A DNA stretch of 64,000 nt from Blastopirellula marina DSM 3645 (GTDB lineage Bacteria; Planctomycetota; Planctomycetia; Pirellulales; Pirellulaceae): NCBI RefSeq assembly GCF_000153105.1, contig NZ_CH672376.1, positions 2,271,120-2,335,119 of the forward strand, in the 5' to 3' direction. Positions 1,449 through 13,543 of this stretch are shown here, piece by piece. Both the position numbers and the translations under genes were made by a program. Numbering within the stretch: position 1 is the first letter of the stretch; each line of letters begins with the position of its first letter. The notes under the pieces were generated by a model that was given only the letters and a program-made list of their open reading frames with translations, ran no database searches and had not been told where the DNA came from.

Positions 1449-3259
1449 TAGTTGCGCTCTACCTCCAGGCCGCTGCCGTTCAGCAGAGCCGCCAATTCTT
1501 CAAAACGTTGTTGGGCGCCAGGTTGGACATCGACCTTGAGCGTCGGCTTCCAATAAATGCCGCGGCCGGCGATTCCCCAATCTTCGATGCGGGACCAGAC
1601 TTGCGAGACGAACTCGTCAATTCCGCCGCGAACGTCCGATTGCAATAGCACCACCTGCGGCTGCTTGCTGCTCCCTTTTTCGGGCACGATCACAATTCGA
1701 TCGGCGGCGACAACCACATGAATGGGACGCGTGATGCCGGTTGCACGGGCCGATTGTCCCGGCAACGCCCAGTTACGACCGCGCGTGTTGGCCAACGATT
1801 GCGGCGCCATCTGCGCTCCGCCGCTGTTGCTAGAGCTGCCCCCTTGTTGGCCGCCTGGCGATGGACCTTGTTGTTGCGCTCCATATCCGCCAGAAATGGT
1901 GCTGTCTCCGTTGGGATTGCCCCGCTTGCCGTCGGTCGAACCGGCCGGCACTGACATCGCGTCTGTGCCGTCGGCGCCTGACAATTGCGGGCCCTGCGCG
2001 TTGCGTTGAGCTTGCGTTTGATATCCGCCTGGCAGCGAAGCGGCCATTGTGCCTTGTCCGCCGCTCGAGGTGCGATCAAATTGCTGCGAACCACCGCCGG
2101 CGCCGCGATCAAACGGTTTTCCGCCGTCGGTGGAGGAACGAGCGTACGATTCGGGGCCGCCAGCCGAACCGCCGGTCATCGTCGAGCTGGCGCCTGGTTG
2201 GCCGCCGATCGGCGCGCCTTGTTCGAGAAACGCATTCTTGCCGAACGGGGAGCCCTCTTCCCCACGGCCGCCGCCGTTGCCGCCGCCGCTAGGAACGAAT
2301 CCACCGCGACTAGTTGCGGTCAGCAAACCGGTTTCTTCAACGCGACCATACTCACGCGGCGCCGCTCGCATGACGGCCACTTTGCGCCGCCTAGCGACTT
2401 CGACCGTTTGCATCAACGTTTGCGCGAGGAAGGGATCCGCTTCGGGAAATTGCAGTTCCAGCTCGTCGTCGATCAATTCGTAGCCAAATTCTGAATCCCA
2501 CGACAACATGGCGTCGCGAGCCGCAGCGTAAGATTCGGCCCCATTGGGGCGCACGACCAGCAGCGGATAAGGATCGGGCGCGCTGGGGTTTTGTTTCAAG
2601 CGATATTCGCGAATCGCACGCAGCGCCGCATCCAACGGATTGCCGGCGCCCAACGGAGGACGAAAATCGGCGCCATACAGTTCGATCCCTTCCGGCTGCA
2701 GAATGACGCGATCGCCGGTGCATTCGATATAAATCGGTTGACGGCGCGTGCCGTTAGGTCCGTCGTAGGGAATCAGCGCGTAAGAAGGTTTTTTCTTCGC
2801 CGCCTTCGCTTGCTCTTCGGTCAGCTTGTCTTTGGCGTCGGCCAGCTGCTGGCGAACTTCGGCCAGTTGCTGATCGATGTCGGCTTGATCCGACTTCGTG
2901 GCGTTCCGCTTTTCTTCGAGCAGCTTCACTTGTTCGTCCAGGCCGCGGATTTGCGTCGCCAGACGGCGAATGTGATCTTCGATGCCGCTCAGCTGCAAGC
3001 GCTCGTCTTCTAACTGTTGGCGTTGCTCGGCGCGCAGCTTTCGCAACTCTTCCAGTTCGGCCAGCGGAAAAGCAGGGACTTCCGGCGCAGCGACCGGCGT
3101 TGTTTCAGTCGTGACCGGCGCAGCGTCGACCGAAGCACGAGCCTGCTGCACGAGGACGACCAGCAGCACAATCAGTGCGCCGACCGTACAGATCAGGACC
3201 GCTAGGAACGGGAAGAGTGAGATTTCGACGCCTTGACGACGCGCTTGGGCTCGGCTCAT
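1448..3259 (-). CDS. Large ExbD/TolR-like membrane protein with coiled coil and Gly/Ser/Gln-rich linker
   Basis: 603 residues, no characterised family recognised. The N-terminus (VEISLFPFLAVLICTVGA) is a single membrane helix of TolR/ExbD style. A charged coiled coil follows at about residues 65-160. A globular domain at about 175-300 contains PIYIECTGDRVILQPEG and LLVVRPNGAESYAAARDAM. A long low-complexity linker rich in Gly, Ser, Gln and Ala spans about 315-500. The last 90 residues (RPIHVVVAADRIVIVPEKG and onward) look like a partial repeat of the first domain. The start overlaps the stop of the TolQ-like gene as ATGA and the stop abuts the next start, so the three genes form one translationally coupled unit. 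The long flexible linker suggests a reach across the periplasm; this is inference. Confidence 0.72.
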   Translation of the reverse strand: MSRAQARRQGVEISLFPFLAVLICTVGALIVLLVVLVQQARASVDAAPVTTETTPVAAPEVPAFPLAELEELRKLRAEQRQQLEDERLQLSGIEDHIRRLATQIRGLDEQVKLLEEKRNATKSDQADIDQQLAEVRQQLADAKDKLTEEQAKAAKKKPSYALIPYDGPNGTRRQPIYIECTGDRVILQPEGIELYGADFRPPLGAGNPLDAALRAIREYRLKQNPSAPDPYPLLVVRPNGAESYAAARDAMLSWDSEFGYELIDDELELQFPEADPFLAQTLMQTVEVARRRKVAVMRAAPREYGRVEETGLLTATSRGGFVPSGGGNGGGRGEEGSPFGKNAFLEQGAPIGGQPGASSTMTGGSAGGPESYARSSTDGGKPFDRGAGGGSQQFDRTSSGGQGTMAASLPGGYQTQAQRNAQGPQLSGADGTDAMSVPAGSTDGKRGNPNGDSTISGGYGAQQQGPSPGGQQGGSSSNSGGAQMAPQSLANTRGRNWALPGQSARATGITRPIHVVVAADRIVIVPEKGSSKQPQVVLLQSDVRGGIDEFVSQVWSRIEDWGIAGRGIYWKPTLKVDVQPGAQQRFEELAALLNGSGLEVERN

Positions 3260-4587
3260 GCCGCATGACCTTGCGAGGGTTTCTTCTCCAGTTCAAATCG
3301 ACGACCGCCGCTATCGCCGATGCGATTGTTCAGCAGGTGAATCGTCGCGGCGAGGCTCAATACGGTCTCTTCAAAGTGACCAGCGCCCGCCAACGAGTCG
3401 AGGTTGCGGCTGAGCGTTTGTTCGAGCGACGAGATTTCTCCGACCGCTTCGACCGCTTTCAACATTACTTCCCCTTGTTGGGTCAGTTGAGCCTGTTGAT
3501 CCCGCATCAGACTCGCGTTGTTATCGAGCGCCGTCTGGAACTGCTTCCAATCGACGCGCATCTCGCGAATCACCTCTTTTTCGGCGCCGGCCAGCGCCGC
3601 CGCATGGCGTTCCAGTGAACCAGAAAGAGCCGCAGAGAGCGAATCTTCTAACTGCTGCTTGCTAGAGCCGACGATTTCTTCCCAGTGGTGATGAGCGCCG
3701 TCGATCGTGTTGCGCCAAAGTTGCGTTTGACGTTCGACTAATTGCTCAGTCGCTTGCATCACGCGTTCGGCCATGCGCTGGATCGCAGCGACGCTGGGGT
3801 CGCTTTTTCCGCCCGCTTGTTGGAAACGTCCGCTCAACTGGGCCGAAGCGGCTGAGTCGACGACGGTCAACAGTTCGTTTTCGATGCGGTCGGCGATAAA
3901 CTGCGCGAACATCAGAAAGATCGACAACGACAACGCCAACGCGGTCGTATCAAACGCGACGCTCAATCCGGCGAGCAGGCTTTCCATCGCCGCTTTCGGT
4001 TCGTTCACCAGCGCCTCGGGAGATAGATTGCCGAGCGCGAGCGTAATACCGATAACGGTACCCAAAAAGCCGAGCATCGGAGTCGCCCAAATGACGATCC
4101 GCACCAGCGAAAAGCTTTGATAGGCGCGTTCCGCTTCTTGATCGGCGAAGTATTTCAGTTCTTCCTGCAAGCCGGCGGCGCTGCCGTTGACGTGCACATG
4201 TTCAATTCCTTGAAACAATCGCCGCCAGAGCGAATGTCGCTGTAGACGTTGCGGGTACTCTTCCAATTGATCGAGCAGCCCGGCGGCGTCGTCAATCAAC
4301 TGGCCTTCGCGCGGCGGCGCAGGGAGTTCGATTTTGCTGACGTTGGTCAATTCGCGTGCGACATCCTGCAATTTCAACAGGATCGCCGCTAAGCCGACAA
4401 AGAACATCGCCGTTTCGATGTATTCGACCGGGTGCCCGGCAAAATAGCGCACGATCAGCGGATTGCTGATCACGCCTTGATTGATCAGCGCGAAGAAGCC
4501 GATCGTCGCGGCCAAACCGAGGGCGACTGGCCACCCTAGTTTTCCACTGATGTTGTACCAGAACTTGGAGGTATTTCGTGCAGTCAC
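3256..4587 (-). CDS. MotA/TolQ/ExbB-family proton channel protein
   Basis: 443 residues. Four hydrophobic segments are visible: about residues 18-36, 50-72, 165-185 (TPMLGFLGTVIGITLALG) and 210-232. The GFLGTVIGIT segment is the conserved TolQ/ExbB/MotA signature in the helix that lines the ion path. The C-terminal 190 residues are a hydrophilic, probably coiled-coil extension not present in ExbB (about 240 residues). The family forms a pentameric inner-membrane channel that couples ion flow to movement of an ExbD/TolR/MotB partner. Two such partner-like proteins follow in the same operon, each overlapping its neighbour by one to four bases. The ATG at 4585-4587 follows a divergent intergenic region that should hold the promoter. 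Confidence 0.85.
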   Translation of the reverse strand: MTARNTSKFWYNISGKLGWPVALGLAATIGFFALINQGVISNPLIVRYFAGHPVEYIETAMFFVGLAAILLKLQDVARELTNVSKIELPAPPREGQLIDDAAGLLDQLEEYPQRLQRHSLWRRLFQGIEHVHVNGSAAGLQEELKYFADQEAERAYQSFSLVRIVIWATPMLGFLGTVIGITLALGNLSPEALVNEPKAAMESLLAGLSVAFDTTALALSLSIFLMFAQFIADRIENELLTVVDSAASAQLSGRFQQAGGKSDPSVAAIQRMAERVMQATEQLVERQTQLWRNTIDGAHHHWEEIVGSSKQQLEDSLSAALSGSLERHAAALAGAEKEVIREMRVDWKQFQTALDNNASLMRDQQAQLTQQGEVMLKAVEAVGEISSLEQTLSRNLDSLAGAGHFEETVLSLAATIHLLNNRIGDSGGRRFELEKKPSQGHAA

Positions 4588-5300
4588 CGGTTCGTATCCT
4601 TCCTACGCGGTGCGATCGAGCGGAGCGGGGAGACAAGTCCGCACAATCCTCATAATCGGAACAACCGCAGCTTGGATTTGAGGTTTTGTTGGCGCAATCA
4701 GTAGGAAACCCAAGATGCGGCGTCAATGCGAAGTCCGTTTCGCCCGCTAGCAAATGAGGAGAGCCAATTCAGCAACATTTGCCGGTTTTATCGAAAAGAA
4801 CGTGAATGTCCCCGCGACTGGTTGCCGATAACTTCCTTTGTCGCAAATGACAACATTCGACGCAAACCGCTATGCCAACCAAGGTTGCATCAATCTTTGG
4901 CAGACGCGTTGCCTAAATAAATCCCGGGGGGGAATGAAAGTTCGGTTGGGGTCCACTTGACTCCACCGAACTTCTTTTATTTCTTGGCCCTCTTTGGTTG
5001 CCCTATCTTCTTGGGGGTATCGTGCGTGATTGACATTGCCAGCATTTCCGGGCTACCGCTACGATACGCAGGTCTCAGTGCGAGCGAATCGGCTGGAAGC
5101 GGCGGCTGCTAGCATAAGTCTTTTGTTTCTTTAGGCTTAGGGCTATCGCGAACGCTCCGTGTTCGCCCTTCCCGTGCGTCCTGGCCGTGGGGGAAGCGAT
5201 TCGCCGCTAACATTTGGGGACGAAAAGAGTTGCATCAAGGAAACGGGCTTCTAGAATAGATAGAGGTCCGATTCCGCAATCCACGAAGAGTAGGTGGTTT
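4588..5300. other. Intergenic region of about 710 bp between divergent units
   Basis: Holds the upstream regions of the minus-strand motor operon and of the plus-strand secreted-protein gene. The only clear structure is a hairpin followed by a T-rich stretch at 4938-4973 (separate entry). A possible 64-codon reading frame at 4726-4920 on the plus strand has no convincing ribosome binding site or composition and is not called as a gene. No tRNA or riboswitch was recognised. Confidence 0.6.
4938..4973 (+). terminator. Hairpin followed by T-rich tract in intergenic region
   Basis: The arms AAGTTCGGT and ACCGAACTT pair perfectly. An inner stem GGGGTC/GACTCC (one G-U pair) closes on a five-base loop, and the hairpin is followed by CTTTTATTTCTT. 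This looks like an intrinsic terminator on the plus strand, but no recognised gene lies immediately upstream on that strand, so it may end a small transcript. Confidence 0.5.
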
Positions 5301-5639
5301 ATGCGTAATGCGGTATTGGGCTTTGCCCTTGTCGTTAGCCTCGTCATTGCAGTCGCTTGGTTGGAAACTCCTCCTTCTCCAGCGCAGGCACAAGCACCGT
5401 ACGCGGCGGCGCCAAGCGGTTCGCTGATTTCCCATTCGACCAATACGGCGTTGGGAATGCAGCAGGTCGTTCTGATTGATCCGCAAACGAGAGTTATGGG
5501 CGTCTATCACGTAGATGGAACGACCGGAAAGATTTCTCTCAAGAGCGTTCGCAATCTACACTGGGATCTGTTGCTGGAAGCGCACAACAGCACCAATCCG
5601 AGTCCTAGCGAAATAAAAGCATCGCTCGGCAGACCCTAA
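5301..5639 (+). CDS. Small secreted protein of unknown function
   Basis: 112 residues. The ATG at 5301 is preceded by an AGGTGG ribosome binding site and opens a signal peptide (RNAVLGFALVVSLVIAVAWL) with likely cleavage after AQAQA near residue 35. The mature part is about 75 residues and includes QQVVLIDPQTRVMGVYHVDG and SLKSVRNLHWDLLLEAHN. The layout suggests a compact beta-rich unit, but no named family was recognised. The gene ends 51 bp before the helix-turn-helix protein on the same strand and may be co-transcribed with it. The role is unknown, and export to the periplasm is inferred from the signal peptide. Confidence 0.75.
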   Translation: MRNAVLGFALVVSLVIAVAWLETPPSPAQAQAPYAAAPSGSLISHSTNTALGMQQVVLIDPQTRVMGVYHVDGTTGKISLKSVRNLHWDLLLEAHNSTNPSPSEIKASLGRP

Positions 5640-5690
5640 GCATTTGCTTCGGCGGCCGGGCTTTTACGATTTGATTCACCGGAGCCTGGC

Positions 5691-6980
5691 ATGGCCAAAT
5701 TAATCCCCCTCAGCGAAGCGGCTGAAATCTTGGGTATCTCGGAAGAGCAGTTGGTCGAAATGCGATCACGCAACGAGATCCACGGCTATCGCGATGGGGC
5801 GAGCTGGAAATTCAAAGAAACCGAAATTGAGCGGGTCAAAACCGACCTTGCCGGCGGCGGTCAAGCTTCCGAGCTCGGGGATAGCGGTGAAGATCTAATC
5901 GAATCGCCCAGCGATTCGGATGATGACAGCGAATTTGAATTGTCGCTCGGCGGCGATGACGGATCGTCCGGCGAAATCGACTCGCTCCTGATTCAGGACG
6001 AAGGTCGCAGCGGCGAATCTGGGGTCGTGATCGGCGACGAACTCTCGTCAGGCGGCAGTGACTTGAAACTGGCCGATAGCGATATCGAGCTTGGTTTTGA
6101 GGGCTCCAGCGCCATCGACCCTGCGTCCGACACCAACAGCAATTTGAATCTCGATCTGGAAGGTTCGGACGTGCTCGGCAGCTCGTCCCTCAATGCTCCG
6201 GTCGACGCCGATGACGACGATGATGATGAGCTGTTGCTCTCCCCAATCGGCAAAGACGATGACGTCGGGATTGGAACCGAAAAACGCGATCCCGAAGGTA
6301 CCGGTTCGGGGGTTAGTCTGGCGCTCGGCGAGGATGACCTGGATCTGGGCGAAAGCGCGATCTCGGCCATCGATGATCTCGATAGCGGCGAATTGACGCT
6401 TGACGCCGGCGATAGCGGAGTCAGCCTGGTCGATCCGGCCGACAGCGGTATCGACATCGGCATGGAGCCGCTGGACCTTTCAGGCTCGAAGGTCGACGCG
6501 TTTGACTTGGCGGGCGACTCCGGGGTCGAAGTCGACCAAGATATTGCGTCGGGCATTTCCGCCGGCAAGAGCAGCGGCGATGACGACTTCCTGCTGACTC
6601 CGGTCGAAGGGGAACTGGACGACGACGATAGCGGCTCGCAAGTGATCGCGCTCGATTCTGATTCGATCGGTTCCGAGTCGGCTCTGTTTGGCGCCGGTAT
6701 CGACGACGGAGATTTTGGGGCTGCTGACGACGGACTCGAAGTCGTTGACGAGATGGGGACCATGGATGTCACCTCTCCGGCGGGTGCGCCTGCCGCGGCG
6801 GCGCCGGTTGAAGCTCCCTATAGCGTGCTCAATCTCATTAGTCTGGCCGCGACCGCCGCTTTGGTATTGGTCGCGGGACTCATGGTGACCGACCTGATTC
6901 GCAACATGTGGTCGTTTGACGAACCCTACGCAATCAACAGTTCGATCATGGACGGCATTATCAGCTTGATGGGGGTCTAG
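5691..6980 (+). CDS. Excisionase-type helix-turn-helix protein with long Asp/Ser-rich region and C-terminal membrane helix
   Basis: 429 residues. Residues 1-50 (IPLSEAAEILGISEEQLVE and a following GASWKFKETEIER strand) match the excisionase/MerR-like HTH_17 DNA-binding fold. Residues about 55-370 are extremely rich in Asp, Ser, Gly and Glu, with recurring short phrases such as DSGVSL, DSGID and LLSP/LLTP followed by acidic runs. A hydrophobic helix at about 382-402 (ISLAATAALVLVAGLMVTDL) is followed by a short tail. The order suggests a cytoplasmic DNA- or protein-binding head joined by an acidic, probably disordered tether to the inner membrane. Function is unknown; it could be a membrane-tethered regulator or nucleoid anchor. 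A strong intrinsic terminator follows the stop. Confidence 0.8.
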   Translation: MAKLIPLSEAAEILGISEEQLVEMRSRNEIHGYRDGASWKFKETEIERVKTDLAGGGQASELGDSGEDLIESPSDSDDDSEFELSLGGDDGSSGEIDSLLIQDEGRSGESGVVIGDELSSGGSDLKLADSDIELGFEGSSAIDPASDTNSNLNLDLEGSDVLGSSSLNAPVDADDDDDDELLLSPIGKDDDVGIGTEKRDPEGTGSGVSLALGEDDLDLGESAISAIDDLDSGELTLDAGDSGVSLVDPADSGIDIGMEPLDLSGSKVDAFDLAGDSGVEVDQDIASGISAGKSSGDDDFLLTPVEGELDDDDSGSQVIALDSDSIGSESALFGAGIDDGDFGAADDGLEVVDEMGTMDVTSPAGAPAAAAPVEAPYSVLNLISLAATAALVLVAGLMVTDLIRNMWSFDEPYAINSSIMDGIISLMGV

Positions 6981-7019
6981 CTTCGGCGCCCAGAGCGAGA
7001 TCACCGCAAACCAACCGTC

Positions 7020-7049
7020 AAAAGCCGCGAGACGCCTCGCGGCTTTTTT
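7020..7049 (+). terminator. Intrinsic terminator after the HTH/acidic membrane protein
   Basis: The arms AAAAGCCGCGAG and CTCGCGGCTTTTTT are fully complementary around a short loop, and the second arm runs into the T tract. It lies 40 bp after the stop at 6980 and should end that transcript. Confidence 0.88.
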
Positions 7050-7312
7050 CGTAACTGCTGTTTGGTGCAATCGTTACAACCGATCACCTTAATCCGGCGG
7101 GAGTGCGGCGGCGGCGGTATCTTTTCCCCCTGGTCGCGCTATAATCTACTAGTTGCGGATGTAACGTCCGCGTGCTGAGGGCGAGTTCGTCTCTTGGCGC
7201 TGTATCTGAATTTGGCGTTTTGACAGCCGAGCGCTGACGTTGTTGTCGCTTGGTCCCGCCGCTTGACGCCCTGTAATTGCCAACTTATCCCCACGCTGGC
7301 CAGTCCAAACGC

Positions 7313-10300
7313 ATGGCTCGACCCAAACTTGCCTCCTCGGATCAATCTTCCTTTGTCTGGGGAGTATTGCGTCTGTACGAAATCGCCGCATCGCTCAAAT
7401 TGGCGGTCTGCCTGTTATTTGGGATGGCGCTGACGTTGGGCATCGCGACGGCGGTGGAAGCGGCGTTTAATACCAACGTCGTGCAGTTTTACGTCTACCA
7501 ATCGTGGTGGTTCTCGCTGCTTTACATGCTTCTAGCGGTCAACATCTTCTGCGCCGCGTCGATTCGCTTTCCCTGGAAGCGGCATCAAACCGGGTTCGTC
7601 ATCACGCACATTGGCCTGCTGACGCTGTTGTTTAGCGGTGTCGTCAGTCGCGTGTGGCGAATCGACTCGCAGGTGAGCGTTTGGGAAAATAACATCTCCG
7701 ACATCCGTGCGTTTGAGCCTGATCATTACCGGTTCGCGCTGCGAGTGGATCGTCAGACCGGTTCGCCGCTCGATCCGCCGGAGATTACGGAAGTCGATAT
7801 TCCGTTCAAGCCGGGGCCGTTTAGTTGGGCCGACTACCAGGAAGGCTTCAGCAAAATTCAAGTCGCGCGACCCGAAATCGCGAATCTCTTCTCGCCGCTC
7901 TTTTATCTAGCGGGAAGACATAGCGCCGGAAATGTCCTCTACTCGGACGGCGACATTCGCTTGGAAGTATTGGACTACTACGGCAACAGCCATTGGGAAG
8001 ATGGCGTGCCGGCCGTCGAAATGCGGCTGAGCATGCCCGCCGGGAAGAAACAGTCGGCCGATGGCCGACTGGTCGCCGACGACATGCAGTGGGTCCCGAT
8101 TCAGCTGGGGGTCCACATGGTCGAGGGAGACACGCAATACAAATATGGGGTGGGCGATCGTCAGCCGATGGGCGCCGGAGCGTTCACCATGGCGATGGCC
8201 CCCAATCGCGCCGCGACGGTCGCCTTCTTAGAAGGTGGTCCCCAGGGAGAGATCGGCGAGCAGGGACAAGTCGTCCTCTTCGCCGCCGGCAAACGACTAG
8301 AGATCGATGTCGCTGCTGAGCTCGACAAAGAACCGCAGCCGCTCGCAGGAACGGCGCTCTCGTATCAACTCACTTCCTACATGCCGTCGGCGGTTCCGAG
8401 TCGAAAGCCAGGCGGCGGCATCGTGTGGGGAGACGGCGAAGAGAACGACGTGCCGCAGAACCCGGCCGTGCGCATCGAGTTGACCCAGGATGGAAAGCCG
8501 GTGGACGAGTTGATCCTGCTGGCCGACATGCCCAACTTCAACGCTCAGGCCTTCGACGCCGAAGTTTACGGCTCGTATTGGTTTAATCATGGCGAAAAAA
8601 CTTCGGCCGAACTGCTGCAAGGAGGAAGCCCCGGCGGATCGCGAATCGATGTGATCCAAGGCATCGACGAAGATGGCGAAACGAAACGCTTGTACTATCG
8701 CTACTGGAATCGAAAAGAAGTGGTCGTCGCGCGTGACCTGCCGATTGACGGCGACAAGACGAACGCCGTCGATGCGTTCAAGATGCCGATCGCGCAGCTG
8801 AAGATGTATGTCGAAAACTACATCTCTGCCGACACGCCCTCCGCGACCGCGGTGCGCGACCCCTTTGATCCCAAAATGCAAATGCCTTCGCCGGCGGCGC
8901 TGGTTCGTTTGACCAAGGGGGACAAGACGGACGAGTTCTGGATTCAGGCGCACTTCGGCGATCCGAACTCAGGACATGTCGACGATAGTACGCGTCATGT
9001 GATGAAGGTCGGCGATACGACGCTGACGTTGGCGATGCCGATTCAGTCATTCGACATCGGCTTTCGCGTCTTCCTTGAGCAGTTCGAGCGTCGCTTGGAT
9101 CCCGGCACGGCCCAGCCGTCCCACTATTCCAGCGATGTGCACTATCTCGACCGCGTTCGCGATCGCTGGATGATGGTCTGGGACCCGGCGAGCGAAACGA
9201 CGAAACGAGTCGAGTTTCCGTTGACGATCGACAGCAACTCGCCCAGCGATATCACCAGCGGCGCCGGTCAGATCTTTTGGATCGACGACGCATCGCCGGC
9301 TGTGATCTGGAGCATGCCGATCGCCGCATTGGACAGCGGTGATTGGGAACAAGCGAAAAAGATCGTCCCGTTTGGTTTGGCCAATCCGCAGCAATTGGTT
9401 TGCGACGCCGACGGCGGCAAAATCTATTGGACCGATTGGCGCAAGGGCCGGTCGGGGGACGAAGGCTATATTCGCAGCGCCAACGTCGATGGATCGTCCC
9501 CTGCAAGCGTGATCACGTTCGCCGGTCGTCCCAGCGGCATCGCCGTCGATAGCGAGCGAGATTGGATCTATTTCACCAACGACGCGTCGGGCTTTGTCGG
9601 CCGCGTGCATCGCGATGGGACCGAGCTGACGCCAGATTGGATCGCGATTCCCGATGGTCGCGCGACCGATGTGACCGTTGACGCAGGGACCGGCGACGTT
9701 TACTGGACCGACAAAGCGAAGAACGTCATCCGCGGCGCATCGAGCGAAGGCAAACTGTTTGGCTCGCCCCCGTTTTTGGGCTCGGCGGACAAGGGAATGC
9801 CCAATTCGCTGGCATTGGGGGACGGATTCCTGTATTGGACCGACATCGAGCCGAACCCCAGCGATCCTCTCTCGCGTAAGCATCTCAGTGATCCGACTTT
9901 TGACCGCTCGAAGCCGCGTGAAATTTTGACCCGCGTACGTCGTATTGCGTTGGCCGGCGGTGAGAAGCAAGACCACGACGTGGCGACGACGATGGTTAGC
10001 GCTCCGCGCGGCGCCGCGTTTGTCGACGGCAGACTAATGTGGACGCAAAACGCGGTGATCAAAGAAAATGTCTGGATCACGATGAACGCGCCTGACGCGT
10101 TCCGCGATCCGACCTACAACCGCGACTTGCACGTCTTCCAGGAAAGTTTCCAAGGCCCGTTCAAGCCCGGCACGCCGGAATACGCCAAGTTTGCTCCGAC
10201 GCACAGCGACGATGAAGAGATCTACGCGTCGGTCTTTACGGTCAACCACGATCCCGGTTCGGCGCTTCGCTACTGGGGTTGTTTGCTGGTGATTCTAGGA

Positions 10301-10426
10301 ATCGCCACGATGTTTTACATGCGGGCCTACTTTTTCAAGCCGCGCAAACGCGAGGAGTCGCCCGTTGACTCCCGCCGTTCAAATGCAGCAGAGACCAAGC
10401 TTACCGACATGGTCGGTAAGGTTTAG
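7313..10426 (+). CDS. ResB-like cytochrome c biogenesis protein with inserted six-unit YWTD beta-propeller
   Basis: 1037 residues from the ATG at 7313; an upstream in-frame TTG at 7277 is less likely. ResB (Ccs1) works with CcsA to deliver haem to apocytochrome c on the outer face of the membrane (system II). The N-terminal helices lie at about residues 24-48, 58-82 and 92-112 (VITHIGLLTLLFSGVVSRVW), with a C-terminal helix at about 985-1005 (YWGCLLVILGIATMFYMRAY). The ResB hallmark MNAP...FQESFQGPF appears near residue 922. Between about residues 640 and 915 lies an unexpected domain with six regularly spaced units: IFWIDD, IYWTDW, IYFTND, VYWTDK, LYWTDI and LMWTQN. This is the LDL-receptor-type propeller signature. 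The CcsA partner starts 10 bp after the stop. Confidence 0.85.
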   Translation: MARPKLASSDQSSFVWGVLRLYEIAASLKLAVCLLFGMALTLGIATAVEAAFNTNVVQFYVYQSWWFSLLYMLLAVNIFCAASIRFPWKRHQTGFVITHIGLLTLLFSGVVSRVWRIDSQVSVWENNISDIRAFEPDHYRFALRVDRQTGSPLDPPEITEVDIPFKPGPFSWADYQEGFSKIQVARPEIANLFSPLFYLAGRHSAGNVLYSDGDIRLEVLDYYGNSHWEDGVPAVEMRLSMPAGKKQSADGRLVADDMQWVPIQLGVHMVEGDTQYKYGVGDRQPMGAGAFTMAMAPNRAATVAFLEGGPQGEIGEQGQVVLFAAGKRLEIDVAAELDKEPQPLAGTALSYQLTSYMPSAVPSRKPGGGIVWGDGEENDVPQNPAVRIELTQDGKPVDELILLADMPNFNAQAFDAEVYGSYWFNHGEKTSAELLQGGSPGGSRIDVIQGIDEDGETKRLYYRYWNRKEVVVARDLPIDGDKTNAVDAFKMPIAQLKMYVENYISADTPSATAVRDPFDPKMQMPSPAALVRLTKGDKTDEFWIQAHFGDPNSGHVDDSTRHVMKVGDTTLTLAMPIQSFDIGFRVFLEQFERRLDPGTAQPSHYSSDVHYLDRVRDRWMMVWDPASETTKRVEFPLTIDSNSPSDITSGAGQIFWIDDASPAVIWSMPIAALDSGDWEQAKKIVPFGLANPQQLVCDADGGKIYWTDWRKGRSGDEGYIRSANVDGSSPASVITFAGRPSGIAVDSERDWIYFTNDASGFVGRVHRDGTELTPDWIAIPDGRATDVTVDAGTGDVYWTDKAKNVIRGASSEGKLFGSPPFLGSADKGMPNSLALGDGFLYWTDIEPNPSDPLSRKHLSDPTFDRSKPREILTRVRRIALAGGEKQDHDVATTMVSAPRGAAFVDGRLMWTQNAVIKENVWITMNAPDAFRDPTYNRDLHVFQESFQGPFKPGTPEYAKFAPTHSDDEEIYASVFTVNHDPGSALRYWGCLLVILGIATMFYMRAYFFKPRKREESPVDSRRSNAAETKLTDMVGKV

Positions 10427-10435
10427 GAACATGCC

Positions 10436-13400
10436 ATGAAGTCGATTCGCCCTTTGTTTTCCGCTGTTTCCCTGGCGTTGGTCGCCGCGTGGATTGTCCC
10501 CGCCGGGGCCGGCGAGAAATTTGATTCGGCGGTTTGGAAGCAACTTCCCGTTTATCACAACGGCCGCGTGAAGCCGTTGGATACGTTCGCCAACTTGGTG
10601 GTCAAAGAGATCACTTCGCACGACAAAACGTCGGTGAAGGTGAACCTGGTCGACTACTACGCGCCGGACGAATTAGCGAAGCCCGAATATAGTGATGCGC
10701 TCTCGATCTTGCCCGACGGCGAAGTGCGGAAGTTTCAGCCTTCGGAATTGATTTTGAGCTGGTTGGCCGAACCGCAGAAGTGGGAACGAATTCCGTTTAT
10801 CGTCGCCGAACATGAAGACGTGCGCAACTCGCTCGGTTTGCCGATCGAAGGTCCGACGGGGCAACGGCTTCGCTTTGTCTCGCCTTACGAGATCACGCAT
10901 TCGGTTCCGCTCCGCAAGTTTTTGCTCGAAGTCGACGCGCGTCGTAAAGCCGCGATGACCAGCGGCGAAAAGTTTGAGATGACCGCGTCGGAAGAACGCG
11001 TTTGGAACGAAGTGCTGACCAAGTACGCGCTTTATCGCGACGTGACGTTTGATCCGCGTTTGGACATCAACTTGAACGAAGCGTTGCCGATGCCAGGCGG
11101 ACGAGATCGCCTGTTCTATAGCGTGATGGCCGCCGCCAAGATCATGTCGCAAGAGCCCAATGTCAAAAATCAGACGTTGGAAAGCCAGTATCAGATTTTG
11201 ATGCAGCTCGGCGGCGAGTCGCCGATGGCGCTGGCCGCCAATCGGTTGTTGTCGTCGTATCGCGCCCTCTTTTCGCTATTGGTCAACGCTCAGGTCGACG
11301 CACATGAATTTCTAGAAAACGAAGAGCCAGAGCCGCTGACCGCCGACGAACCGCCGACCTTGGAAGAAGCGGAGCCGCTGGTCGCCGAATTTCGCGCCGC
11401 CGCCCACGAACTTGCCGAGCTGTTGCGTGTGGAACGGGATCGCGCCAATACGCAGCAGACGCTTAGCCGCTCGCAATACGAGACGATCAAGCCGATGTTC
11501 CAAGAGATGCTGGTGAAAACGAGCGAATTGGATCGACTAGGGCTCGAGATGCAGTTGGGGCTGTACGAAGGGTCGGATCTGGTCAAAAAGTTCGACCGCA
11601 GTCTTAGCGGTACGCTCTACGTCGTTCCCGCACTCAACGCCGAAGCGCTGAAAAAAGATCGCGGCACCGAAAACATGGCTCAGCCCTGGCTCGGTTTGTC
11701 GACCATCTTGTACAGCTCAGGCGATCTGCTGAAGGGGTATCCGCAAAACAAAGTCGCCGCCGTTCGCAAGTCTTGGAAAGCATTGACCCAAGCATATGTC
11801 GACGGCGCGTCAACTGAGCAGACGCAAAGCGACTTCGCCGCAGCGCTGCGATCGATTGGTGAGCAAACCGACGCCGAACGGCGCGAGCTGGTCGCCGACG
11901 ATCAACAAGACGAACATATCCTCAGCTACACCGCGTACCCGCCGGCCGGCAGTCCGCGCATCGAAGCCGAAGTTCGCTACAACGCGCTCGACCCTTTCCG
12001 CATCGCCTGGATTATCTGTCTGGGGGCGACGTTCTGCTATTCGCTCTCGTTCGGCGTGATTCGCAAGGTGATGTTCTGGATGGGAACGGCGCTGCTGCTG
12101 ACGGCGATCGTTTGGTCCTCGTATGCGTTCTACATGCGGATTTTGATCAGCGGCTGGGCGCCGGTGACCAACATGTACGAGACCGTCGTTTTTGTGCCGT
12201 GGGTCGTCGCCGTCATGGGCGCCGCCTTTTTGATGCTGCCGATCTTTGATCGCGGCCGGCTCGAAGCTTGGCGAGCATCGGCGGTTCCCGGCACGCCGGA
12301 AGCGACGCCGCTGACGCCGCGACATTTAGAAACGCAATCGGCGTCGACTTGGAATATGCTGGGCATCTTCGCCACGATCGTGCGTTTGCCGCTGATGGCT
12401 TTCGTCGTCTGGATGCTGGCGTTCGCTTTGTATAGCGACGGCAATCGTCCGATTATTTCTGACCTCAATCCGCTCGCGGCGTTTTCGCTCTCCTCGAACT
12501 TGGGCAAAGACGCGGCGATCTGGCTGGTCAAAGTGTTGACGCTAGTCATCACGGTTTACTTTGTTCCGCGCCTGCTGCTGAGCGGAGTTTTCGCCGTCTA
12601 CTACGTCCTGCGTGACTGGTTCGTGAACAACAGCATCGTGACCAACTTGCCGGCCGTGCTGGAGCGTTCCTATTTCGGCCTGGCCGCTTCCGGCGCCGCG
12701 ACCTTCTTCTTTTGCGTCGCTTCGTTCGCGCCGGTGCTCGACGAGAACTTCTCGCCGCTGCAGCCGGTGTTGCGGTCCAACATGTGGTTGACTGTGCACG
12801 TGCTGACGATCGTCGCTAGTTATGGCGCCGGCATGCTCTCTTGGGCGCTCGGCGTGATCGCACTCTTCTTCTATATGTTTGGCACGTATCGCGCACCGGT
12901 GACGCCGGTTGGCGCTCCAGAGGGATTTCGACCCGCTCACGACGCGCATGCCGAACTTGGTTATCGTCCGCCGGAGCAATGCGCCGTGTTGGCTGGGTAT
13001 TGTTACCGCTCGATTCAGGTCGCAGTCATGCTGCTGGCGACCGGCACCATCCTCGGCGGCTTGTGGGCCGACGTCTCTTGGGGACGTTTCTGGGGCTGGG
13101 ATCCGAAAGAAGTTTGGGCTCTCATTTCGCTGCTGGTTTACCTGGCGATTTTGCATGGTCGCTTCGCCGGTTGGTTCAATAACTTTGGCTTGGTCGTCGG
13201 CACGATTCTTGGGTTCACCATGATCGTCTTCTCGTGGTACGGGGTCAACTTCCTCTTGCCGATGTTCTCGGGCGGACAAGCCGTTGGGCTTCACTCCTAC
13301 GGTTTCGGTGAAGGTGGACAAGGCTACGTGCTGGGGTTTGTCGCGATGAACTTGCTGTATCTCGGCGTCGCTGCGGTCCGCTTCCAAGTGACCAACGTCA

Positions 13401-13543
13401 TCAAGCCGGGCTCCCCCAAAACCGAAGACGTCTCACGTCTGATCGACGACGAAGAAATCGTCAGCGCCGAGTCAGCGGAACCGACGAAACCGCACGAGGG
13501 CATGAAGAACAGAGAGGAAGAGCAAGAGCATCGGCCAGTCTAG
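10436..13543 (+). CDS. ccsA: CcsA/CcmF-family cytochrome c biogenesis protein with large N-terminal extension
   Basis: 1035 residues. A signal-like helix (RPLFSAVSLALVAAWIV) precedes about 490 hydrophilic residues of unknown fold, presumably periplasmic. The polytopic haem-handling module runs from about residue 521 to 985. The haem-binding WWD-type motif WGRFWGWDPKEVWALI sits near residue 882. The motif APVTNMYETV near residue 575, and conserved histidines in HVLTIVASYGAGM and GLHSYGFGEG, fit CcsA/ResC. Together with the ResB-like protein ending 10 bp upstream it forms a system II cytochrome c synthase. Typical CcsA has about 320 residues, so the extension is striking. The last four bases overlap convergently with the minus-strand gene at 13540. 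Confidence 0.88.
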   Translation: MKSIRPLFSAVSLALVAAWIVPAGAGEKFDSAVWKQLPVYHNGRVKPLDTFANLVVKEITSHDKTSVKVNLVDYYAPDELAKPEYSDALSILPDGEVRKFQPSELILSWLAEPQKWERIPFIVAEHEDVRNSLGLPIEGPTGQRLRFVSPYEITHSVPLRKFLLEVDARRKAAMTSGEKFEMTASEERVWNEVLTKYALYRDVTFDPRLDINLNEALPMPGGRDRLFYSVMAAAKIMSQEPNVKNQTLESQYQILMQLGGESPMALAANRLLSSYRALFSLLVNAQVDAHEFLENEEPEPLTADEPPTLEEAEPLVAEFRAAAHELAELLRVERDRANTQQTLSRSQYETIKPMFQEMLVKTSELDRLGLEMQLGLYEGSDLVKKFDRSLSGTLYVVPALNAEALKKDRGTENMAQPWLGLSTILYSSGDLLKGYPQNKVAAVRKSWKALTQAYVDGASTEQTQSDFAAALRSIGEQTDAERRELVADDQQDEHILSYTAYPPAGSPRIEAEVRYNALDPFRIAWIICLGATFCYSLSFGVIRKVMFWMGTALLLTAIVWSSYAFYMRILISGWAPVTNMYETVVFVPWVVAVMGAAFLMLPIFDRGRLEAWRASAVPGTPEATPLTPRHLETQSASTWNMLGIFATIVRLPLMAFVVWMLAFALYSDGNRPIISDLNPLAAFSLSSNLGKDAAIWLVKVLTLVITVYFVPRLLLSGVFAVYYVLRDWFVNNSIVTNLPAVLERSYFGLAASGAATFFFCVASFAPVLDENFSPLQPVLRSNMWLTVHVLTIVASYGAGMLSWALGVIALFFYMFGTYRAPVTPVGAPEGFRPAHDAHAELGYRPPEQCAVLAGYCYRSIQVAVMLLATGTILGGLWADVSWGRFWGWDPKEVWALISLLVYLAILHGRFAGWFNNFGLVVGTILGFTMIVFSWYGVNFLLPMFSGGQAVGLHSYGFGEGGQGYVLGFVAMNLLYLGVAAVRFQVTNVIKPGSPKTEDVSRLIDDEEIVSAESAEPTKPHEGMKNREEEQEHRPV

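Follow-up and report, generated by a model that had tools for sequence, protein, structure and literature searches.

A six-bladed YWTD-type propeller predicted within the ResB/CcsB protein of a split cytochrome c synthase in a clade of Pirellulaceae

CcsB and CcsA are together expected to bring haem out through the membrane and to attach it to CXXCH motifs, as is the case for CcsBA of H. hepaticus. In the latter protein, F240 starts the beta-cap loop, which closes over the active-site haem; the beta-cap Phe and Tyr have been described as conserved, not as defining, and for System II synthases the roles of the periplasmic cap and chamber, and the entry of the CXXCH substrate, are stated as open (PMC10663686). 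Here we describe a locus at which this machine, though of a known kind, has a new domain architecture, with a propeller grafted into CcsB. Our search of the literature, whose coverage was partial, found no account of a propeller in ResB. The locus lies in a window of 64,000 nucleotides from Blastopirellula marina DSM 3645 (GCF_000153105.1, contig NZ_CH672376.1, positions 2,271,120 to 2,335,119); coordinates below are positions in this window, and features are on the plus strand unless stated otherwise.

The reading frame is open from 7277 to 10426, and the ATG at 7313 is its likely start, giving a ResB/CcsB-like protein of 1037 aa (7313-10426) that scores 58.1 bits against the Pfam ResB profile (PF05140), whose curated cut-off is 24.6. 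Helices in an AlphaFold2 (AF2) model, built from 42 sequences (mean pLDDT 83, pTM 0.69), give a topology of three N-terminal transmembrane helices (aa 28-51, 65-83 and 90-115; 7394-7657), a large beta-structured periplasmic part and one C-terminal transmembrane helix (aa 982-1007; 10256-10333), and from this topology we infer that the cap and the propeller are periplasmic. When the single 1037-aa sequence was searched against the PDB, H. hepaticus CcsBA (7s9y) was matched by residues 26-127, and a profile alignment to 7s9y aligns His99 (TM-His2; 7607-7609) with its helix 3; this histidine is present in every representative covering the position. A beta-rich periplasmic domain (aa 117-590; 7661-9082), also found in insert-free planctomycete relatives, leads to the sequence FERRLDPGT (aa 591-599; 9083-9109), which the same alignment identifies as the beta-cap loop (PMC10663686), with F591 on F240. 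Of the beta-cap pair, the Phe is thus present and the Tyr245 position is taken by Asp596 (9098-9100), an Asp in 42/42 planctomycete rows, propeller or none. The ResB hallmark MNAP...FQESFQGPF (aa 924-950; 10082-10162), recognised by alignment with orthologues, precedes the last helix. Ten bases past the end of this ccsB gene starts a CcsA/ResC partner of 1035 aa (10436-13543) with the WWD-type motif WGRFWGWDPKEVW, which matches Cytochrom_C_asm at 1.4e-28 and TIGR03144 at 8.8e-38, the latter yet under that profile's cut-off. Judged from its sequence, the propeller-bearing protein is therefore the ResB/CcsB component of a split, presumably active System II cytochrome c synthase. Its cysteines are at positions 33, 80, 697 and 990 only.

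Planctomycete orthologues with and without the insert can be aligned up to the insertion from either side, and diverge between residues ~613 and 915. LDPGT and MNAP are 31-54 residues apart in those insert-free orthologues that were measured, versus 320-355 in insert-bearing ones, which bears out the proposal, made in an earlier sequence-only reading of this DNA, that the propeller replaces a short loop. That reading had also placed the propeller between the transmembrane part and the ResB hallmark; this is right, although the propeller does not follow the transmembrane part directly: some 475 residues of a periplasmic domain that is ordinary for planctomycete ResB lie in between. In the AF2 model the insertion is flanked by beta strands at aa 602-612 (9116-9148) and 915-923 (10055-10081), and, with their pairing inferred from the hairpin of insert-free proteins, the propeller is modelled as replacing the turn of the beta-hairpin right after the beta cap. 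That this arrangement could be an artefact of assembly or gene fusion has practically no probability: nothing was found in its favour, and the same in-frame layout recurs in independent assemblies (28 genomes from 9 genera). Other expansions of the same hairpin, unrelated in appearance and roughly 70-90 residues long, occur in the distant planctomycete ResB proteins L161, L162 and L164. The site thus tolerates inserts, and looks like an insertion hotspot.

The inserted propeller spans aa 613-914 (9149-10054), of which residues ~617-913 superpose on known structures; the range of 9220-10080 suggested previously is somewhat offset from the modelled propeller. The six blade signatures named at that time were all found, in the same order and within that range (9272-10051): IFWIDD (aa 654-659; 9272-9289), IYWTDW (aa 704-709; 9422-9439), IYFTND (aa 752-757; 9566-9583), VYWTDK (aa 796-801; 9698-9715), LYWTDI (aa 840-845; 9830-9847) and LMWTQN (aa 908-913; 10034-10051), the last with a Q912 that is present in all lineage representatives. 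A loose YWTD-like pattern matched the insert six times, whereas 20,000 shuffles gave 0.007 matches on average and 2 at most; because the pattern had been derived from these very signatures, this excludes composition only. Evidence independent of the motifs points to one complete six-bladed YWTD propeller, as had been proposed. Firstly, residues ~633-846 matched LRP2, LRP4 and LRP6 in a phmmer search of the PDB (E 1e-20 to 1e-9), and the insert scored 29 bits against Pfam Ldl_recept_b (PF00058; cut-off 21, one repeat scored). Secondly, the AF2 propeller, with a pLDDT of mostly 70-94 except around residues 637-639 and 848-862, gives Z scores of 27-29.5 and an rmsd of ~2 Å over ~242 residues when its residues ~617-907 are laid over solved YWTD propellers. 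The best superposition of this predicted model is on LRP6 (Z 29.5, rmsd 1.9 Å, 242 residues), and LRP-type chains also rank first in Foldseek. In this sense the predicted model agrees with the closed six-bladed propeller of the earlier reading. Only propellers are among the matches listed for the whole model, and the absence of CcsBA from them is uninformative because one domain occupied them; conversely, a PDB search with the whole alignment A2 found only CcsBA-type chains, because the insert columns drop from the profile. Thirdly, the insert of L011, which is ~20% identical, was modelled separately (pTM 0.83) and still matches YWTD propellers (Z 25.6, rmsd 2.3, 237 residues), indicating that the fold outlasts the decay of the motifs. 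Antisense to the propeller runs a 309-codon open frame (9047-9976, minus strand), probably a by-product of codon bias.

A propeller could also be an enzyme domain, for example one like virginiamycin B lyase (Vgb), and the insert alone does give a weak Pfam Vgb_lyase match. We rejected this reading as very improbable, because the match of 15.7 bits is far below the curated cut-off of 50 (PF24684), and because the model superposes on six-bladed propellers, whereas Vgb is a seven-bladed propeller.

In a tree of the protein without its insert, all insert-bearing rows (21/21) form one clade (support 100/99), which is nested among insert-free relatives, with L012 as the nearest outside row; mapped on this tree the insert requires one change, and the clade is present in 100% of 200 bootstrap trees. 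The single clade indicates that the insert was gained once. With midpoint rooting, the choice of one gain over one loss relies on distant planctomycete rows without insert. Several independent insertions find no support in the tree or in the correlation between insert and core distances (r 0.96; 0/2000 permutations as high). On these sequences, then, the propeller insertion is best read as a single gain, with no loss seen since among the genomes examined. Close orthologues carry it and the next relatives do not, so that the check for lineage specificity proposed in the sequence-only reading comes out in favour of a lineage-specific insertion. Blastopirellula sp. NORP48 and uncultured Pirellulaceae are among the named records that belong to the insert-bearing clade.

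The propeller protein is encoded in 28/241 genomes, from 9 genera, of the Pirellulaceae-type family to which the window belongs. Instead, 203/241 genomes of this family have a fused CcsBA, mostly of about 1200-1350 residues, and the two System II types are mutually exclusive (0 of 241 genomes with both); the fused members that we read have a short hairpin only. Loss of the insert in other members of the family is therefore too simple a picture, since most of them have this different, fused CcsBA. Beyond this family, searches of 397 genomes from the order and 392 from the phylum turned up no ResB with the insert, within their sensitivity, and several ResB frames of 770-990 aa from elsewhere in the phylum showed no YWTD-type insert when read by eye. 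Other fusions were seen as well. L151 (2510-5911) and L152 (minus strand) encode fusions of ResB to CcsA, 1110-1134 aa long, with hardly any periplasmic domain but with the beta cap kept, possibly a minimal version; L153, from another family of the order, has on its reverse strand (2325-7793) a 1823-aa open frame in which a full-length ResB is fused to CcsA.

CcsA adjoins ResB in nearly all of the examined loci of sufficient length, insert-bearing or insert-free, and several neighbouring genes are common to both kinds of loci, which argues that the insert entered in place; no partner gene specific to the insert-bearing loci was seen among the six window genes compared. As to its source, no second propeller of the same kind was found in the genome within the sensitivity of BLAST and Pfam, and on that basis we rejected a recent copy from the same genome. 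Among bacterial sequences, the closest matches found lie in two large multidomain proteins of planctomycetes, L154 and L155 (34-35% identity over about 155-175 residues), and proteins of this type are a plausible donor pool, judging from sequence similarity. The YWTD propeller proteins of L154 (1645-5799) and L155 (3-3476) look secreted or surface-exposed.

We next consider what the propeller might do. In the mechanism that we propose, CcsB with its grafted propeller and the adjacent CcsA would form a split System II synthase that attaches haem to CXXCH motifs. The propeller would occupy the turn of a hairpin that is entered by a strand beginning at the beta-cap loop above the active-site haem. 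As a rigid module outside the cytoplasm, it would dock or guide a protein partner and keep it near the opening of the active site, the candidate partner being the apocytochrome or a thiol reductase that keeps its cysteines reduced. We put the probability that the propeller docks a maturation partner at roughly 0.5: a reasonable and plausible proposal, already made in the sequence-only reading for an apocytochrome or a redox partner, with a putative partner and a putative binding. Its position beside the active-site loop fits this role, and the solved YWTD propellers of LDLR and LRP bind protein partners, as is apparent from the titles of several complexes among the structural matches.

On the other hand, the pattern of conservation argues against docking. 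Among ten lineage representatives, columns conserved to at least 90% make up 5.8% of the propeller, versus 14.8% of the periplasmic domain and 59% of the beta-cap stretch, and in the propeller it is chiefly fold residues (YW.D, aspartates, P, G) that are conserved. No invariant surface patch across the clade was seen in these ten representatives, and the propeller has neither conserved cysteines nor evident haem-ligand histidines. Moreover, orthologues that lack a propeller presumably perform the same task. The main rival to docking is an architectural role, in which an insertion-prone hairpin tolerates the propeller, and the propeller has no specific partner and is retained because the cap has come to fold around it or because it makes the periplasmic part larger. 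The predominance of fold residues among the conserved ones, the fast divergence of the propeller and the expansions at the same hairpin in L161, L162 and L164 all favour such a role, which we consider possible although we lean against it: no loss was seen in the 28 genomes of 9 genera, and the propeller is under purifying selection much like that on the neighbouring domain. Its dN/dS of 0.07-0.16, obtained by a simple counting method with dS near 1 in most pairs, is similar to that of the neighbouring periplasmic domain in the genus of the window and up to about twice as high in another genus. It should be noted that retention and purifying selection are also compatible with an insert that has turned structurally indispensable.

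Over long distances, divergence is faster in the propeller than in the remainder of the protein, and between several insert-bearing lineages propeller identity falls to about 20%. Any partner would thus be lineage-specific or bound non-specifically. The fold of the propeller is maintained by selection, and a binding site shared across the clade is not apparent. One might speculate that a receptor-type propeller was acquired as a substrate-docking gate whose face has been diverging in each lineage to match its own cytochromes, a scenario that we regard as rather doubtful. Fast divergence would also suit a propeller that binds a target outside maturation, such as a component of the cell wall or envelope or a small ligand, and thereby places or regulates the synthase, and the related propellers of L154 and L155 do occur in secreted- or surface-looking multidomain proteins. 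However, nothing ties this propeller to such ligands, and anchoring beside a haem site is not obviously useful, so that we hold this explanation to be quite unlikely.

Whichever role applies, the propeller represents a clean, single-event graft of a domain into a central membrane machine. The clade is a natural experiment, in that orthologues at the same locus either have or lack a domain of 300 residues next to the cap, and the contribution of this domain to substrate access is therefore directly testable.

Compared with known systems, the protein of the window resembles H. hepaticus CcsBA (7S9Y/7S9Z) and split CcsB/CcsA (ResB/ResC) in that the N-terminal helices, the helix-3 His and the beta cap align, as do, for H. 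hepaticus CcsBA, F591 on F240, the C-terminal DPG...TM region and the CcsA partner. It differs from H. hepaticus CcsBA in that the genes are split, its periplasmic domain is larger, the hairpin that follows the cap contains a propeller of 300 residues, and Asp596 takes the place of Tyr245. With the insert-free planctomycete ResB proteins (L012, L013, L014) it shares ~30-58% identity over the common parts, the hallmark motifs and an adjoining CcsA, and it differs from them in the long LDPGT-MNAP spacing. The propeller itself has the six blades and YWTD-type signatures of the LDL-receptor family (LRP6, LRP2, LRP4, LDLR, nidogen), on which it can be superposed, but it is only 16-22% identical to them and sits inside a hairpin that belongs to a membrane protein; in contrast to the LDL-receptor-type YWTD-EGF pair, no EGF module follows it, and the chain rejoins the ResB strand at residue 915. 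Finally, the multidomain propellers of L154 and L155 are its closest bacterial relatives in sequence among the matches found, but those are flanked, as read by eye, by cadherin-like or VCBS-like repeats and dockerin-like ends, whereas the propeller described here is flanked by ResB.
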